DNA from: Cordylochernes scorpioides
Taxonomy: Eukaryota; Arthropoda; Arachnida; Pseudoscorpiones; Chernetidae
Length of the DNA: 64,000 bases
Assembly (NCBI GenBank): GCA_030710605.1
Contig: CP092869.1
Span: 12,239,425 to 12,303,424 of the forward strand
Direction: 5' to 3'
Below the pieces are notes generated by a model. It had not been told where the DNA came from and ran no database searches. It was given only the letters and a program-made list of their open reading frames with translations. The translations under genes and the position numbers were made by a program. Positions 21,225 through 63,990 of this stretch are shown piece by piece (position 1 is the first letter of the stretch; every line of letters starts with the position of its first letter).

Positions 21225-23470
21225 GTCAACATCTGGCAACCTCTCTATCTAGCGATATAACACAAAATAACATTCGTAACAAATAAATTTACTGGCAATG
21301 AGTTTCTTTTCAATAATATCATCAAATATTATCTCTACAAACCTTACTGCAATGATATCAATGATATAAGTTATTGAATGAGTGGCAATGTGTTTCTTTT
21401 CAATAATATCATCAAATATTATCTCTACAGACCTTACTGCAATGATATAAGTTATTGAATGAGTGGCAATGTGTTTCTTTTCAATAATATCATCAAATAT
21501 GATCTCTACAGACCTTACTGCAATGATATAAGTTATTGAATGAGTGGCAATGTGTTTCTTTTCAATAATATCATCAAATATTATCTCTACAGACCTTACT
21601 GCAATGATATAAGTTATTGAATGAGTCGCAACGTGTTTCCTTTCAATAATATCATCAAATATTATCTCTACAGACCTTACTGCAATGATATAAGTTATTG
21701 AATGAGTGGCAATGTGTTTCTTTTCAATAATATCATCAAATATTATCTCTACAGACCTTACTGCAATGATATAAGTTATTGAATGAGTCGCAACGTGTTT
21801 CCTTTCAATAATATCATCAAATATTATCTCTACAGACCTTACTGCAATGATATAAGTTATTGAATGAGTGGCAATGTGTTTCTTTTCAATAATATCATCA
21901 AATATTATCTCTATAGACTTTACTGCAATGTGATATAAGTTATTGAATGAGTGGCAATGTGTTTCTTTTCAATAATATCATCAAATATTATCTCTACAGC
22001 CCTTGCTGCAATGATATAAGTTATTGAATGAGTGGCAATGTGTTTCTTTTCAATAATATCATCAAATATGATCTCTACAGACCTTACTGCAATGATATAA
22101 GTTATTGAATGAGTGGCAATGTGTTTCTTTTCAATAATATCATCAAATATTATCTCTACAGCCCTTGCTGCAATGATATAAGTTATTGAATGAGTGGCAA
22201 TGTGTTTCTTTTCAATAATATCATCAAATATGATCTCTACAGACCTTACTGCAATGATATAAGTTATTGAATGAGTGGCAATGTGTTTCTTTCCAATAAT
22301 ATCATCAAATATTATCTCTACAGCCCTTACTGCAATGATATAAGTTATTGAATGAGTGGCAATGTGTTTCTTTCCAATAATATCATTAAATATTATCTCT
22401 ACAGTCCTTACTGCAATGATATAAGTTATTGAATGAGTGGCAATGTGTTTCTTTTCAATAATATCATCAAATATTATCTCTACAGACCTCACTGCAATGA
22501 TATAAGTTATTGAATGAGTGGCAATGTGTTTCTTTCCAATAATATCATCAAATATTATCTCTACAGCCCTTACTGCAATGATATAAGTTATTGAATGAGT
22601 GGCAATGTGTTTCTTTCCAATAATATCATCAAATATTATCTCTACAGACCTTACTGCAATGATATAAGTTATTGAATGAGTGGCAATGTGTTTCTTTCCA
22701 ATAATATCATCAAATATTATCTCTACAGACCTTACTGCAATGATATAAGTTATTGAATGAGTGGCAATGTGTTTCTTTCCAATAATATCATCAAATATTA
22801 TCTCTACAGACCTTACTGCAATGATATAAGTTATTGAATGAGTGGCAATGTGTTTCTTTCCAATAATATCATCAAATATTATCTCTACAGACCTTACTGC
22901 AATGATATAAGTTATTGAATGAGTGGCGATGTGTTTATTTTCAATAATATCATCAAATATTATCTCTACAGACCTTATTGCAATGATATAAGTTATTGAA
23001 TGAGAGGGCTTTGCTTATCAGTAGTGAACCCTCTCTGCGGTTTCGCCAAATTAATCTCTAGATCGCTCTATTATTGCTGCCTTCCATAGAAAATGCAAGG
23101 TGTATCCCAAACCTATCCAATACAAGTCATTGCAGTAAGGTCTATAGAAATAATATTTTATGATATTATTGAAAAGAAACACATTGCTACTCATTCAATA
23201 ACTTATATCATTGCAGTAAGGTCTGTAGAGATAATATTTGATGATATTATTGAAAAGAAACACATTGCTACTCATTCAATAACTTATATCATTGCAGTAA
23301 GGTCTATAGAGATAATATTTGATGATATAATTGAAAAGAAACACATTGCCACTCATTCAATAACTTATTGCAGTAATGTCTGTAGGGATAATATTCTATG
23401 ATAATATTGAAAAGAAACACATCGCCAGTAAATTTATTTGTTACCAATTATATCGATAGATGGCAAATAA
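21225..23470. mobile_element. Foldback-type element with 81-bp repeats, copy A
   Basis: Left arm: about 21 head-to-tail 81-bp units (21295-22995; marker 'gagtggcaatgtgtttcttt'). Middle: ~110 bases ('gagggctttgcttatcagta'...). Right arm: about 3-4 units in inverted orientation (23118-23430). Outer ends are also inverted copies ('gtaacaaataaatttactgg'). Long inverted termini made of tandem repeats is the architecture of Foldback/Galileo-like transposons. Because 81 is a multiple of 3 and one frame lacks stops, the array reads as a 27-residue repeat (…EIIFDDIIEKKHIATHSI…), which need not mean it is translated. No transposase is present. Confidence 0.75.
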
Positions 23471-31608: not shown

Positions 31609-33600
31609 AACATCTGGCAACCTCTCTATCTAGCGATATAACACAAAATAACATTCGTAACAAATAAATTTACTGGCAATGTGTTTCTTTTCAATAATAT
31701 CATCAAATATTATCTCTACAGACCTTACTGCAATGATATAAGTTATTGAATGAGTGGCAATGTGTTTCTTTTCAATAATATCATCAAATATTATCTCTAC
31801 AGACCTTACTGCAATGATATAAGTTATTGAATGAGTCGCAACGTGTTTCCTTTCAATAATATCATCAAATATTATCTCTACAGACCTTACTGCAATGATA
31901 TAAGTTATTGAATGAGTGGCAATGTGTTTCTTTTCAATAATATCATCAAATATTATCTCTATAGACTTTACTGCAATGTGATATAAGTTATTGAATGAGT
32001 GGCAATGTGTTTCTTTTCAATAATATCATCAAATATTATCTCTACAGCCCTTGCTGCAATGATATAAGTTATTGAATGAGTGGCAATGTGTTTCTTTTCA
32101 ATAATATCATCAAATATGATCTCTACAGACCTTACTGCAATGATATAAGTTATTGAATGAGTGGCAATGTGTTTCTTTTCAATAATATCATCAAATATTA
32201 TCTCTACAGCCCTTGCTGCAATGATATAAGTTATTGAATGAGTGGCAATGTGTTTCTTTTCAATAATATCATCAAATATGATCTCTACAGACCTTACTGC
32301 AATGATATAAGTTATTGAATGAGTGGCAATGTGTTTCTTTCCAATAATATCATCAAATATTATCTCTACAGCCCTTACTGCAATGATATAAGTTATTGAA
32401 TGAGTGGCAATGTGTTTCTTTCCAATAATATCATCAAATATTATCTCTACAGCCCTTACTGCAATGATATAAGTTATTGAATGAGTGGCAATGTGTTTCT
32501 TTTCAATAATATCATCAAATATTATCTCTACAGACCTCACTGCAATGATATAAGTTATTGAATGAGTGGCAATGTGTTTCTATCCAATAATATCATCAAA
32601 TATTATCTCTACAGACCTCACTGCAATGATATAAGTTATTGAATGAGTGGCAATGTGTTTCTTTCCAATAATATCATCAAATATTATCTCTACAGCCCTT
32701 ACTGCAATGATATAAGTTATTGAATGAGTGGCAATGTGTTTCTTTCCAATAATATCATCAAATATTATCTCTACAGACCTTACTGCAATGATATAAGTTA
32801 TTGAATGAGTGGCAATGTGTTTCTTTCCAATAATATCATCAAATATTATCTCTACAGACCTTACTGCAATGATATAAGTTATTGAATGAGTGGCAATGTG
32901 TTTCTTTCCAATAATATCATCAAATATTATCTCTACAGACCTTACTGCAATGATATAAGTTATTGAATGAGTGGCAATGTGTTTCTTTCCAATAATATCA
33001 TCAAATATTATCTCTACAGACCTTACTGCAATGATATAAGTTATTGAATGAGTGGCGATGTGTTTATTTTCAATAATATCATCAAATATTATCTCTACAG
33101 ACCTTATTGCAATGATATAAGTTATTGAATGAGAGGGCTTTGCTTATCAGTAGTGAACCCTCTCTGCGGTTTCGCCAAATTAATCTCTAGATCGCTCTAT
33201 TATTGCTGCCTTCCATAGAAAATGCAAGGTGTATCCCAAACCTATCCAATACAAGTCATTGCAGTAAGGTCTATAGAAATAATATTTTATGATATTATTG
33301 AAAAGAAACACATTGCTACTCATTCAATAACTTATATCATTGCAGTAAGGTCTGTAGAGATAATATTTGATGATATTATTGAAAAGAAACACATTGCTAC
33401 TCATTCAATAACTTATATCATTGCAGTAAGGTCTATAGAGATAATATTTGATGATATAATTGAAAAGAAACACATTGCCACTCATTCAATAACTTATTGC
33501 AGTAATGTCTGTAGGGATAATATTCTATGATAATATTGAAAAGAAACACATCGCCAGTAAATTTATTTGTTACCAATTATATCGATAGATGGCAAATAAA
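31609..33600. mobile_element. Foldback-type element with 81-bp repeats, copy B
   Basis: As in copy A, but with about 18 units in the left arm (31673-33125) instead of about 21. The middle and the inverted right arm are nearly identical. Unit loss by recombination within the array is the simplest difference. Confidence 0.75.
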
Positions 33601-59023: not shown

Positions 59024-59091
59024 TTCTCCCACAAATTTTGCTCTGAAAGAAGTCAAAATTAAGTATAAGACAAAAGAGCATATAAATACAC

Positions 59092-59286
59092 TGTCGCATA
59101 CCGCGAGATATTTGCATAGTATTGTTTTGTTTTATATATTTTTACATTATGTTTCTTATGAAAGGTTGTTATATTTGCATGTCCGCGAGAAGCGCGATGT
59201 ATATATATAGCTAGGAAAAGTAATAAAGTCAGAGTTTTCTTTAGTATGAAATCGTCTCGTGTTAATTCTTGTCGTAGAACACGACA
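59092..59286 (+). repeat. 5' LTR of the kinase-bearing element (195 bp)
   Basis: Contains TATA-like 'gatgtatatatatagctagg' (about 59193) and, 20 bases on, 'gtaataaagtcag' (polyadenylation-type). The ORF's first ATG (59246) lies inside it. Confidence 0.88.
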
Positions 59287-62200
59287 AATGGCGCAGCCGA
59301 CAGGATCCGCAAGACCTTCCCTGGAAAGCCTCTTAAGGGAGATGGCTGATCAACAAAGCTTAATGATGAGCATTCTTTGTGGAAATAGGAGAGAAGAATA
59401 TCTCAGTGAAGAGGATTACTATGAGAGAAAGGAATATCTTAAATATTCAATTGTTGAAGATGAAGAAGAAGAGAAAGAAGAAGCAAATATTGAGTCTCTA
59501 AAAAGTCTTGAAAAGTCTGAAGAAAATGGAGAAAGCCTCTTAAGGGCGATCGTGAAGCAACAAAGCGTTATGATGGATATTCTTGGAATAGAAGAAGATG
59601 ATTCTGACGATGAGCCTAAAGGCGACGGTGTAAAGGATTCTGAAGATTTCGACGAACAGAATGAAATGGTAGATGAAGAAGAAGATGATTCTGAAGATGA
59701 GCCTAAGGGTGACGGTGTAAAGGATTCTGAAGATTTCGATGAACAGAATGAAATGGTAGATGAAGAAGACTTCGATGAACAGAATGAAATGGTAGATGAA
59801 GAAGAAGATGATTCTGAAGATGAGCCTAAGGGCGACGGTGTAAAGGATTCTGAAGATTTCGATGAACAGAATGAAATGGTAGATGAAGAAGACTTCGATG
59901 AACAGAATGAAATGGTAGATGAAGAAGAAGATGATTCTGAAGATGAGCCTAAGGGCGACGGTGTGAAGGATTCTGAGACTGCAATTAAAGGTTGTGAATC
60001 GGTGAAAAATACAGAAGAACTTTTGGTTAATGGCCTTGATGTTCCTACCACCCAAGCTGGGGAAATTGATAGAGATACAGAGAATACGGAAGAAAGTGAA
60101 AAAGCCGAAGTTGAGAGAAAATCCGTTGAAGCAGATGAAAGTGAAAAGGCTGAAGTTGAAAGAAATTATGTTGAGGTTGAAGAAAGTGAAAAAGCTCAAG
60201 TTGATAAAAAGTCAGTTATAGAAACTGAAAGTGCAGAGTCTCTTACGAAAGAGGATGTTATTGCTGATATTGATGCAGATAATGCAGGACTCTGTGATCT
60301 TGATGATGCCACTTTCACTCAAGTTGGGGAAAGTCAAAAGTCTCAAGTTGATAAAAAGTCAGTTATAGAAACTGAAAGTGCAGACGATACCTCTAAACCT
60401 TCAGACGATGCCTCTGAGCCTGCAGACGATACCTCTAAGCCTGCAGACGATAACTCTAAGCCTTCAGACGATGCCTCTAAGCCTTCAGACGATGCCTCTA
60501 AGCCTTCAGACGATACCTCTAAGCCTGCAGACGATAACTCTAAGCCTTCAGACGAAAAGTCTGCAATTGACGATTCTCAACTTACTAAGGAGTCTGGTAC
60601 TGGCAAAAAAGAACTTACTAAGGAGTCTGGTACTGGCGAAAAAGAACCTACTAAGGAGTCTGGTACTGGCAAAAAAGAACCAAAGCCTGGTACCGGCGAA
60701 GAAGCTTTGAGAGAGCTACCTTGTTACGATACTCTATTGGAAACTCTCAAGAAAGGAATCTATTCGTTTCAAACAAGCGGTGAAAAAAGAAATATGAAAT
60801 TAGGAATAGGTGATTTCAATAAAGGCAATCACGCAAGACGTCGTTTGTTAATATTAAAGAAGTTAACACGCTGCCAAAAAGTTTGGATTTATGCTAAAGA
60901 ATTCAGCCAGATGCAAAAAAGCATGCTTGATAAATATGACATTGATGATTTACGAAATGAATTGGCCATCTACAATTCCTTAAGAACCCTAAAAAATGGT
61001 CAGGTCAATTTATGTTATCCATATTCCTTTATGCTTGTTAAAGATACTGAAAAGACGTTTAGGCTTCTCATAAATATCTTTGAAAAAGGAAAACCATGGC
61101 CTTACTATTGTGAAGGAGAACGAAAAAATTATTTTGTTTTCCTAATGGAATATGGAGGAATAACTCTCGAAACGGCTATCAAATCGAGACTTTCATATGA
61201 AAACTTATTAGTATTATTTCGCCAGATTTGTATAATTTTTGCAATTGGTGAAGAGGAAATTGAACTTTTACATGATGATCTTCATATTAACAATGTTCTA
61301 GTTGCAGAAACAGAAGAGAAACTAATCAAATATGAAGTAGCTTCAAAAAAGATTAAAATCCCAACTCTTGGATATATTGCTAAAGTAATCGATTTTGGGA
61401 ATGCCAGGTGTATTAAGGATATAGATTATAGACAAAGGATGATTAGTGAATATGGAAAGAGACCATGTCCAGCTGAGTATTCAGGAGGGAGTCTATTTAT
61501 GCTGAGTGGACTCTATTTTGAAATGATAAATACTAGTTTGGAACTTCGTGCAGCACTACCTGAACTGCCAAGATTAACTACATCTCTACAACTGTATGAG
61601 GGTTTAATTCAAATCTTAAAAGATTTGGCAATTCTTGAATTCCTGAATGGTTTTCGTGAAAAGTTAGGTCTTCCTGAAGTTATTGGTCCATCTCAATTTG
61701 AATCCATGCTTAGAAATCAGATTCTTGAGGGGCCTTTAAGCAAACTTCTAATATGCCTAGCAAAATTTATTGACAATACAGATAACAACTGTTATACGGC
61801 TTCTGAAATAATGCGAAGACATTTGGAGACAGTTAATACTCCCATTAACGAAAAGTTAACATTGTTAAGTATCTTTGAATTTGATCTTAAAGATAAGATA
61901 ATCATTTTTACAGCACTTATTGAAGTAATGATGCAGAAACATCATGATAGACTTTGTAAATCTGTTAAGAAATCAAGAGATAAGAAAACTAAAGAAGATT
62001 TTAGGGTTTATAATCTGTTGAAAACGCCTATTATTCATACAGCTGGTTACTATCGTTATCATCTTCCAGGTCTATTTGTTCGATGTGATGTGGAGAACGG
62101 AGAAAGTGCTGAATGGAAGTACTATCGACATGATCAAATCTATCCTGAATACTCGGCTCTTTATGCCAGAAAAGTTGGTAGGCCTAAAAAGATTATTGGG

Positions 62201-62416
62201 AAAAGAGAAAAGTTGGAAGACCTAGAAAGGTCATTGAACCACCAGGAGTCTCATCACGGGAGTGATGAGAGGTCATGGGGGGGGAGTCTGTCGCATGAAG
62301 CGCGATGTATATATATAGCTAGGAAAAGTAATAAAGTCAGAGTTTTCTTTAGTATGAAATCGTCTCGTGTTAATTCTTGTCGTAGAACACGACATACACA
62401 ATACACACAAGAGTAG
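59246..62416 (+). CDS. Acidic-repeat protein with haspin-like kinase domain
   Basis: 1056 codons, uninterrupted. Residues 1-14 come from the LTR. ATG 59288 (MAQPTGSARPSL) overlaps the primer-binding site and is an alternative start. Residues ~70-250 are acidic, with a repeated unit (DEPKGDGVKDSEDFDEQ) between 117 and 243. Ser/Asp/Lys-Pro repeats (SKPADD/SKPSDD) follow at 380-438 and KESGTG repeats at 448-485. The kinase-like domain starts near 500: IYAKEF (candidate ATP-binding Lys551), LRNELAIYNSL (helix C Glu), FLMEYGGITLE, HDDLHINNVLV (catalytic Asp678, Asn683), KIPTLGYIAKVIDFGNAR (Asp716). MEYGG, HxDLHxxNVL and the spacing to xIDF resemble haspin, although haspin has DYT where this has DFG. 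Residues ~790-1030 match nothing I know. No gag-pol enzyme is present. Function is inferred from motifs only. Confidence 0.8.
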   Translation: MKSSRVNSCRRTRQMAQPTGSARPSLESLLREMADQQSLMMSILCGNRREEYLSEEDYYERKEYLKYSIVEDEEEEKEEANIESLKSLEKSEENGESLLRAIVKQQSVMMDILGIEEDDSDDEPKGDGVKDSEDFDEQNEMVDEEEDDSEDEPKGDGVKDSEDFDEQNEMVDEEDFDEQNEMVDEEEDDSEDEPKGDGVKDSEDFDEQNEMVDEEDFDEQNEMVDEEEDDSEDEPKGDGVKDSETAIKGCESVKNTEELLVNGLDVPTTQAGEIDRDTENTEESEKAEVERKSVEADESEKAEVERNYVEVEESEKAQVDKKSVIETESAESLTKEDVIADIDADNAGLCDLDDATFTQVGESQKSQVDKKSVIETESADDTSKPSDDASEPADDTSKPADDNSKPSDDASKPSDDASKPSDDTSKPADDNSKPSDEKSAIDDSQLTKESGTGKKELTKESGTGEKEPTKESGTGKKEPKPGTGEEALRELPCYDTLLETLKKGIYSFQTSGEKRNMKLGIGDFNKGNHARRRLLILKKLTRCQKVWIYAKEFSQMQKSMLDKYDIDDLRNELAIYNSLRTLKNGQVNLCYPYSFMLVKDTEKTFRLLINIFEKGKPWPYYCEGERKNYFVFLMEYGGITLETAIKSRLSYENLLVLFRQICIIFAIGEEEIELLHDDLHINNVLVAETEEKLIKYEVASKKIKIPTLGYIAKVIDFGNARCIKDIDYRQRMISEYGKRPCPAEYSGGSLFMLSGLYFEMINTSLELRAALPELPRLTTSLQLYEGLIQILKDLAILEFLNGFREKLGLPEVIGPSQFESMLRNQILEGPLSKLLICLAKFIDNTDNNCYTASEIMRRHLETVNTPINEKLTLLSIFEFDLKDKIIIFTALIEVMMQKHHDRLCKSVKKSRDKKTKEDFRVYNLLKTPIIHTAGYYRYHLPGLFVRCDVENGESAEWKYYRHDQIYPEYSALYARKVGRPKKIIGKREKLEDLERSLNHQESHHGSDERSWGGSLSHEARCIYIARKSNKVRVFFSMKSSRVNSCRRTRHTQYTQE
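62289..62394 (+). repeat. 3' LTR of the kinase-bearing element (106 bp)
   Basis: The last 98 bases are identical to the 5' LTR. An 89-base stretch after TGTCGCAT is missing compared with the 5' LTR. Confidence 0.88.
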
Positions 62417-62508: not shown

Positions 62509-63990
62509 TCATACCTTGCAGGCTTTTCTGATTACCCTACCATATCTATTTCTAGAGTCCCTGGATTCAATATTGGGCCTATTTCCTAAAAATGCATCAG
62601 ATTGGGGTTCGGCACTTGAATTGTCCATTTGAATCGTCTTAACATTCGAGGATATTTCAAGAGGGTGCAAGCGCCGTAGAGCCCCGATCAAGGCCCCTGT
62701 GGATGTTCCAACATGGGCCACTCTCACTATTCCATCTTTACCTGGTATGAGATTTACTATTCGCCCTTTAGGCCAAAACATTCTTTTAAGATTTTCTTGC
62801 CCAATCAGTACAACGTCTCCTACTTTCAACTGTCTTCTATCAATATTTTCGGATTTCCGAATCAGCGCGCCTAAATATTCCTCTAAGAATCTCTGCTTCA
62901 ATTCTCTCTTCAGTTGACCTAACTCTCTGTATCTAGTGTGCAACATTTCTGGCTTTAAATTTTCAAATTCAGGAAAGCTAGACTCTGGACCATTTTGCAA
63001 AAACCCATTAGGAGTCAACGGTTTTAGATCATTGTCGTCCTCAGAGACACAAGTGAGGGGTATATTATTAATGATAGATTCGATTTCACAAAGGGCAGTC
63101 TGCAGTTGTACAAACTTCAGCCCCCCGTGACCCAGCATCCCTATCAACATTTCCCCTATTGTCCTAACCATTCTTTCCCAAAATCCTCCCCACCAAGGAG
63201 CAGAAGGAGGGATAAAAATCCATTGTATCCTTTTAATTGAGGTTTCCCTTTCAATTCTAGTCCAATCCAATCTCTTGAATATTCTATTAAGTTTTGCGAA
63301 ATTGGTGCCATTGTCGCCATATATCCCCTCGGGGCGCCCTCTCCGACAAATAAACCTATGGAGGGCCATCATGAAGACTCCTGTCTCCAAACTCTTCACC
63401 AACTCCAGATGAATAGCGCGATAGACGGCGCAAGTAAAGGCGGCTACCCACACTTTCCCACCTTCCTTCAAATGAAGAGGGCCTAATAAATCAACTCCTG
63501 TAATTTGGAAGGGTTTGCCCAGTCCAATTCTGTTTTCTGGCAAAGCTGCCATTGGTCTTTGCAGAGACTTTTCTTTAAGTCTCTTGCAAGCAATGCACTT
63601 ACTGATAATTTTCTTTATCGTTTTCCTTCCCCTGATTATCCAAAATTTCTCTCTCAGCTTTGATAAAATGAATTGCACCCCAACATGTCCATTCTTCAGG
63701 TGCACTTCCCATATAAGTTGCTCTACGAAGGGATGGTCGCCTGGTAGAATGATAGGAGTTTTAAATTCTTCTGGGACCTGTCCATGTAAAAGTTTGCTTT
63801 CTACACACCAAAGTCCGTCAGTGTTTTTTAATATTTTAAAACGCTTGGTTGCATTCGATTTCTCCATGGAGACCTCCTGAATCATTCGGATAAGCTTTTT
63901 TTCTGCCAAGTCTAATTCTGAAACTTTCAAAGGTCCTGTTTCAGTTGACTGTCTTTCAAGTTTCCCTAAAAATCTTAAAACATAGGACAT
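62509..63990 (-). CDS. BEL/Pao integrase region of Pol, intact core, 5' part outside window
   Basis: 493 codons open to the window edge; the polyprotein probably continues beyond. The HHCC zinc-binding region (VHLKNGHVGVQ ... CIACKRL) is near residues 95-135. The catalytic core has all three acids: GVDLLGPL (about Asp167), YGDNGTNF (about Asp226) and WWGGFWERMVRTIG (about Glu272). A C-terminal DUF5641-like part (LKVGDVVLIGQENLKRMFWP, GRIVNLIPGKDGIVRVA) follows. The intact motifs suggest a young element, and it could be a source of integrase. It aligns residue for residue at its ends with the deleted integrase of BEL/Pao 1. Confidence 0.93.
   Translation of the reverse strand: MSYVLRFLGKLERQSTETGPLKVSELDLAEKKLIRMIQEVSMEKSNATKRFKILKNTDGLWCVESKLLHGQVPEEFKTPIILPGDHPFVEQLIWEVHLKNGHVGVQFILSKLREKFWIIRGRKTIKKIISKCIACKRLKEKSLQRPMAALPENRIGLGKPFQITGVDLLGPLHLKEGGKVWVAAFTCAVYRAIHLELVKSLETGVFMMALHRFICRRGRPEGIYGDNGTNFAKLNRIFKRLDWTRIERETSIKRIQWIFIPPSAPWWGGFWERMVRTIGEMLIGMLGHGGLKFVQLQTALCEIESIINNIPLTCVSEDDNDLKPLTPNGFLQNGPESSFPEFENLKPEMLHTRYRELGQLKRELKQRFLEEYLGALIRKSENIDRRQLKVGDVVLIGQENLKRMFWPKGRIVNLIPGKDGIVRVAHVGTSTGALIGALRRLHPLEISSNVKTIQMDNSSAEPQSDAFLGNRPNIESRDSRNRYGRVIRKACKV

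Follow-up and report, generated by a model that had tools for sequence, protein, structure and literature searches.

Vertebrate retroviruses are known to capture host genes, and in the acute transforming retroviruses gag-pol has been replaced by captured host kinase sequence, translation begins at the gag start and propagation depends on a helper. Among elements with long terminal repeats (LTRs), LARD is one of the non-autonomous types. TRIMs and BARE-2 are others, for which movement in trans with the help of a related autonomous element is assumed. Gene capture by LTR retrotransposons is documented in plants (PMC13317346). Excerpts of that source, which also name TRIMs and BARE-2, portray maize Bs1 as an LTR element in which transduced segments of three host genes are merged in one chimeric open reading frame (ORF) (PMC13317346), and part of a second source gives its copy number as low (PMC2774510). 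An element that likewise carries several host-gene fragments in one ORF between LTRs lies at positions 59092-62394 of a 64,000-nucleotide stretch (hereafter the window; C7:12239425-12303424) of the 2.62-Gb assembly of the pseudoscorpion Cordylochernes scorpioides. Unlike Bs1 as portrayed in those excerpts, this kinase element has an animal host, a likely Ty3/Gypsy parent in the same genome, haspin, SRR1 and DDT-like pieces, and many near-identical open copies; it differs from TRIMs and BARE-2 in holding a long open frame of host-derived domains. It is very probably a young copy of a non-autonomous LTR family derived from Ty3/Gypsy, in which the rest of gag-pol was swapped for one long chimeric frame and which most likely is moved by Gypsy proteins. 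An earlier note on this DNA had proposed an LTR element whose gag-pol was replaced by a haspin-like kinase gene. Replacement by host-derived sequence is upheld, with haspin and SRR1 pieces present and the gag start kept; a single intact kinase gene is not, the ORF being multi-part and its kinase portion lacking the ATP-binding lobe.

The TACAC duplication, TG...CA ends, primer-binding site (PBS), purine tract and 1056-codon ORF named in the earlier note are all in place. By direct reading, the two 5-bp copies of TACAC lie at 59087-59091 and 62395-62399. The 5' LTR (59092-59286; 195 bp; plus strand, as are all parts of the element given below) has TG...CA ends and contains TATA and AATAAA sequences. 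Two nucleotides past it begins the PBS-like stretch TGGCGCAGCCGACAGGATC (59289-59307), which we take to be of the tRNA-Ser type and which matches once in the window versus not at all in 100 shuffles. At the opposite end an inverted repeat with an 8-bp stem (62250-62269) stands directly 5' of the polypurine tract GGGGGGGGAGTC (62277-62288), in a stretch common to the Gypsy family described below. The 3' LTR (62289-62394; 106 bp) is without 89 bp of its U3 region, so that the LTRs are not intact on both sides as had been supposed, though the 98 bp that align are identical. The ORF (59246-62416) opens inside the 5' LTR, and its next in-frame ATG, at 59288, overlaps the PBS. Because of the 3' LTR deletion it reads through that LTR to a stop in host DNA, 22 nt past the element; the stop falls within U3 of the 3' LTR in most sister copies.

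The window element is one young copy of a multicopy, recently moving family. When the LTR was used as the query, the best 40 of 1644 candidates were 98-100% identical, which bears out the expectation of further copies with the same LTRs. Thirty loci were fetched, one of which is a solo LTR (L060); the other 29 and the window make up 30 LTR-paired units, two of them belonging to one tandem array. These units were picked by best LTR match and are consequently biased to young copies. The ORF is present, intact or broken, in all 30 and is uninterrupted in 23, and the LTR pairs are identical in 24, in agreement with the recent movement claimed in the earlier note. Matching 5-bp duplications, which vary by locus and stand right at the LTR ends, occur in 27 of the 30 units (not in the two units of the array, nor in one whose alignment is shifted), and the units are scattered over many contigs. 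A query with the kinase protein gave at least 121 matches (85 scored of 1194 candidates), which include an older subfamily with the kinase part 83-93% identical and with many frames of 700-1020 aa. The tandem array (L052/L053; C1:164421890-164427690) is arranged LTR-internal-LTR-internal-LTR and has a shortened ORF (820-codon frame). The solo LTR (C6:100987500-100993300) is near a tandem-repeat region and has, by eye, an apparent target duplication, ATTTT.

A Pfam search of the window ORF up to E 10 found no gag or pol domain, in accordance with the statement of the earlier note that no retroviral enzyme domain is present; the same search was likewise negative for the two of 29 sister units scanned (L056 and L037). 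The other sister units, 2.6-3.7 kb long, are filled by the same ORF as that of the window. Lacking its own gag-pol, the element is non-autonomous. In its LTRs, PBS, purine tract, 5-bp duplication, gag start and gag piece it resembles Ty3/Gypsy elements, from which it differs in that no capsid, protease, reverse transcriptase, RNase H or integrase was found in it.

The presence of a partner family sharing the LTR, PBS and purine tract, which the earlier note had foreseen, is supported by Gypsy loci in the same genome whose LTRs are 80-88.9% identical to those of the kinase element. A pattern joining the LTR end to the PBS, with up to 3 mismatches, was found at 85 sites versus 0 for a reversed control. 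Exact matches to the pattern (28) and sites with a GGCAGG variant (9) come to 37: 27 fall in units that were read (the window counts among them), every one of these being a kinase element; another 6 are found about 1-2 kb upstream of kinase matches; and the remaining 4 are unclassified. At the sites with other LTR ends both kinds occur, L067/L076 being an older kinase element and the others Gypsy elements. An integrase query scored at least 142 places of 59160 candidates, with open frames of up to 1316 aa, and among the integrase matches listed, 16 of the 85 PBS sites lie by eye 0.3-6.6 kb upstream of an integrase on the same strand. For the 28 exact kinase-type sites, no integrase lies downstream among those matches, an absence that is weak evidence. 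Individual Gypsy loci supply the coding parts: one frame (L066) starts with MAQPTGS and continues as gag; another (L068) carries an integrase (Integrase_H2C2, 2.5e-19; rve, 1.2e-6, 29.2 bits versus a cut-off of 32.6); and a third (L072) shows by eye a YIDD reverse transcriptase, an RNase H-like region and an integrase-start sequence, in that order.

The closest Gypsy locus is C4:115235650-115240320, where LTRs at both ends are 88.9% identical to that of the kinase element over the whole length, an integrase lies in a 1292-aa open frame between them, and the 21 nt that follow the LTR agree throughout (21/21, L073). LTR identity is 80-83% at other Gypsy loci (L069, L070 and L074) and 89.8% over 147 bp at an older kinase element (L071). 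Over the 51 nt that precede the 3' LTR, identity to the kinase element is 90% at the C4 locus (L075) and 96% at C1:19880920 (L074). A putative remnant of the gag N terminus (59318-59395), which starts SLESLLREMADQQSLMMSIL, was matched by tblastn: the kinase element's ESLLREMADQQSLM aligns with ESLIRTMADQQRLM of the Gypsy gag, with 54% identity over 26 aa (E 1.2e-4). At the DNA level this remnant in a sister copy (L059) is 80.6% identical to the L066 gag over 72 nt; the window's own DNA matches L066 in 34 nt around the PBS and nowhere else. Given the shared LTR, PBS, leader, gag piece and stretch before the purine tract, the kinase element is best read as a Ty3/Gypsy element in which gag-pol has given way to other sequence from a point inside gag to shortly before the purine tract, and this Gypsy family is its likely parent and helper. 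The earlier note had named a gag-pol remnant inside the ORF as evidence against capture; a short gag piece is indeed there, and it is read as descent from the Gypsy parent, not as a point against capture.

Comparison of the ORF with protein and profile databases indicates a chimera in which a gag remnant is followed by acidic repeats, by fragments of SRR1 and haspin, and by a weakly DDT-like end, and haspin and SRR1 pieces in one ORF between LTRs amount to fragments of more than one host gene. The acidic region (59590-60680) consists of in-frame tandem repeats of several periods (e.g. 123, 45, 21 and 33), and its extent differs from copy to copy. The SRR1-domain fragment (60704-60943) was recognised through a relative, P0004, in which Pfam finds an SRR1 domain (E 4.8e-12) whose halves match separately, with 16.8 bits for profile positions 15-56 and 27.9 bits for 84-129. 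The shortened SRR1 fragment of the window has no Pfam match on its own, and its assignment appears to follow from the 57.6% identity, acidic region counted in, between window ORF residues 231-566 and P0004 residues 24-371. The motif IYAKEF falls in the first SRR1 half. Thus of the kinase motifs listed in the earlier note, HDDLHINNVLV and VIDFGNAR are in the haspin part, and IYAKEF is in the SRR1 fragment and is not a VAIK lysine motif, as both the SRR1 matches and the older copies indicate. The C-terminal region (61643-62272) is weakly DDT-like (PF02791, E 0.0028-0.2; 12.2-18.2 bits versus a curated cut-off of 22), and against the PDB this part gave nothing under E 0.11. A single-sequence AlphaFold2 model of the kinase-DDT part had a mean pLDDT of 33.8 and was not used.

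Copies differ in how these parts are arranged. Four of them (L037, L051, L056 and L059) carry an extra segment of about 660 nt that lies after the haspin part and before the DDT-like part and holds a second SRR1 piece; a short direct repeat borders this segment, so that a jump between repeats explains the window form. The junction between SRR1 and helix alphaC in the window is likewise without the kinase N-lobe that older copies (L076 and L077) keep. Protein relatives of the ORF were four (P0002-P0005), all annotated from C. scorpioides and one of them named GSG2, a haspin gene name; they came from a window-region query with the full-length length range and 7992 candidates scored. No relatives were found with a 508-aa window query among 7999 candidates scored or with the N-terminal 72 residues of the ORF (13 candidates). 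The window ORF had no NCBIfam match, no phage match and no viral-contig relative, and the exact PBS was absent from the viral contigs searched.

Two side observations concern these ORFs and their annotation. The gene models of P0002-P0005 fuse pieces of the element with sequence of other genes or transposons, namely a Mec-17 acetyltransferase and a mariner-type transposase (P0002), a Bel-Pao gag (P0004) and a DDE_1 transposase (P0005), and as fusions they are probably annotation artefacts. In L056, L037 and most copies the ORF runs on into U3, which would add a hydrophobic tail ending in a TAG that overlaps the TATA region; this tail was considered as a transmembrane feature and rejected as not significant, 108 of 2000 shuffles being equally open and hydrophobic.

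The haspin homology proposed in the earlier note was recovered by both searches made with the window ORF, against the Pfam haspin profile (3.9e-5, 23.3 bits) and against human haspin (E 7e-7). Like members of the haspin (GSG2) family, the element matches human haspin from the hinge through the catalytic loop to the DFG region; unlike them, it has no glycine loop or beta3 lysine, and its region past the DFG is unmatched by human haspin in the same comparison. The fragment (60944-61642) runs from alphaC to the C-lobe and includes LRNELAIY, HDDLHINNVLV and VIDFGNAR. Its start at alphaC was placed by alignment with five host haspin-like ORFs (28-30% identity, best E 3e-17), in which a glycine-loop stretch, the beta3 lysine, HRD and DYG or DF[SG] are seen. 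The older copies L076 and L077 keep the N-lobe between the SRR1 fragment and alphaC, with an arginine (IYRI) at the VAIK-type lysine and a lysine in place of the alphaC glutamate (NKLAIY); P0004 shows VYRI and HNE in its second haspin-like domain. In an eight-row tree the two element-borne haspin domains are grouped (support 99/99), the element rows being long branches, and host ORF L061 is placed with the human haspin fragment (90/93). Because the N-lobe is lost in the window form and older copies have the IYRI arginine, the haspin part of these element copies is probably a non-catalytic pseudokinase. As an observation on the host, the assembly contains 113 haspin-like matches that exceed the cut-off of the Pfam profile (588 candidates, 112 scored). 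Most are uninterrupted frames of about 300-480 aa, and many cluster on C3, C5, C10, C14 and C17 (examples L061-L065); by these profile matches there is a very large haspin-like kinase expansion in C. scorpioides.

Selection on the ORF was assessed within the family on 16 gap-free cores, of which 15 have no stop. The ratio of nonsynonymous to synonymous polymorphism (pN/pS) is 0.50; for an expected 3.8:1, singletons are 23 nonsynonymous to 7 synonymous (p 0.66) and shared changes 6:5 (p 0.058). The corresponding divergence ratio (dN/dS) is 0.77 versus L076 (p 0.59) and 1.14 versus L077 (p 0.71), neither of which differs from 1. Purifying selection is established neither from the 16 cores nor from the L076 and L077 comparisons, and the dN/dS of copies, which the earlier note had put forward as a gauge, gives no sign of it. 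Since these tests show no departure from neutrality, the open frames may reflect the youth of the copies.

Several observations weigh against the reading of a Gypsy-derived element with a chimeric frame. On the Gypsy side, L066 matches Ty3_capsid weakly (0.0063, under the cut-off) and has a stop in its frame; the gag, reverse transcriptase and integrase sequences come piecemeal from several loci; no Gypsy LTR seen exceeds 88.9% identity, and the actual helper may belong to another subfamily; and mobilisation in trans is something we infer from DNA. On the side of the ORF, the haspin score of 23.3 bits is just under the curated cut-off of 25, relative P0003 is without a haspin match in Pfam and P0002 has one of 0.0084, SRR1 was not found by Pfam in the long copy L056 and was found weakly in L037 (E 0.17), and the DDT and gag-remnant assignments depend on weak or short matches.

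Among the alternatives, it is very doubtful that the haspin-like part acts as a functional kinase, phosphorylating histone H3 or other targets to the element's own benefit. The catalytic-loop and DFG segments are indeed retained (HDDLHINNVLV in 28 and VIDFGNAR in 26 of 31 loci, one of these a solo LTR), the ORF is open in 23 of 30 units, and L077, which keeps the glycine loop, has a 1020-aa open frame. Against this stand the window-type fragment, which begins at alphaC without glycine loop and beta3 lysine, the replacement of both the lysine and the alphaC glutamate in both older lobe-bearing copies, and the dN/dS values, neither of them different from 1. A related and rather improbable idea is that the pseudokinase aids the element by binding: attachment to haspin partners or to histone H3 near centromeres might place integration complexes, alter mitotic chromatin or interfere with the host haspin-like family. 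If this were true, it would amount to an arms race, or to piracy of cell-division signalling by a retrotransposon.

The origin and spread of the copies could also be explained in other ways. That the ORF belongs to the host, as an ordinary gene or a multi-copy family, with coincidental flanking repeats or with copies made by segmental duplication, might be suggested by the 113 haspin-like matches in the genome and by the GSG2 label in public annotation; this is extremely improbable in view of 5-bp duplications that differ by locus and directly abut the LTRs in 27 of 30 units, an LTR, PBS and purine tract common to Gypsy elements, and units on many contigs. Amplification of dead copies by DNA-level duplication or ectopic recombination in place of retrotransposition would account for the L052/L053 array, and is nearly as implausible for the family, given the identical LTR pairs, the scattered positions and the target duplication proper to each of the same 27 units. 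Unlikely as well, but less so, is the possibility that the chimera was a pre-existing host fusion gene captured whole in a single event, not assembled inside the element. P0004 has an uninterrupted SRR1 beside its second haspin-like domain, and in the tree the two haspin domains from the element are sisters (99/99), as such a gene would predict; part order and internal deletions nevertheless differ between copies, which fits reshuffling inside the element, and no host fusion gene was seen, a negative with no genome-wide SRR1 search result behind it.

Under the preferred reading, that of a Gypsy-derived element that assembled its own chimeric frame, the LTRs, PBS, leader, gag start, short gag piece, 3' hairpin and purine tract were kept from the parent. 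Proteins of the Gypsy family would most likely take RNA made from the LTR through packaging, priming, reverse transcription and integration. Strand switching onto host RNAs packaged alongside is the probable source of the host pieces, whose later reshuffling would probably be due to jumps between short direct repeats. The former gag ATG is the probable start of translation, and as the haspin part is probably non-catalytic, the chimeric protein would be a passenger or act by binding.

Other features of the window concern its surroundings. A neighbouring ORF on the minus strand (62509-63990) encodes a Bel-Pao integrase/DUF5641, and its 3' end adjoins the kinase element, which by eye apparently sits in the 3' LTR of this Bel-Pao element. 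Elsewhere in the window, at 21359-23422 and 31674-33551, are two large arrays of 81-bp repeats, about 10 kb apart and near-identical in layout, which suggests a duplicated segment.

The replacement of gag-pol by host kinase-derived sequence is shared with the acute transforming retroviruses; the differences are that this is a retrotransposon without evidence of an envelope, multicopy in the germline, with a truncated and probably inactive kinase and with several host pieces. By title and abstract start, among the papers listed, no report of a haspin-carrying retrotransposon was found in the open PubMed Central literature, and likewise none was found for kinase domains in non-autonomous LTR elements, for arthropod gene capture or for pseudoscorpion transposable elements. 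This arthropod family, recently active and accompanied in its genome by a probable parent and helper, would be a natural system for following gene capture and the fate of captured genes. Truncated, older and diverged versions coexist with a large host haspin-like family in one assembly, and thus the origin, reshuffling and selection of the captured sequences are directly testable.

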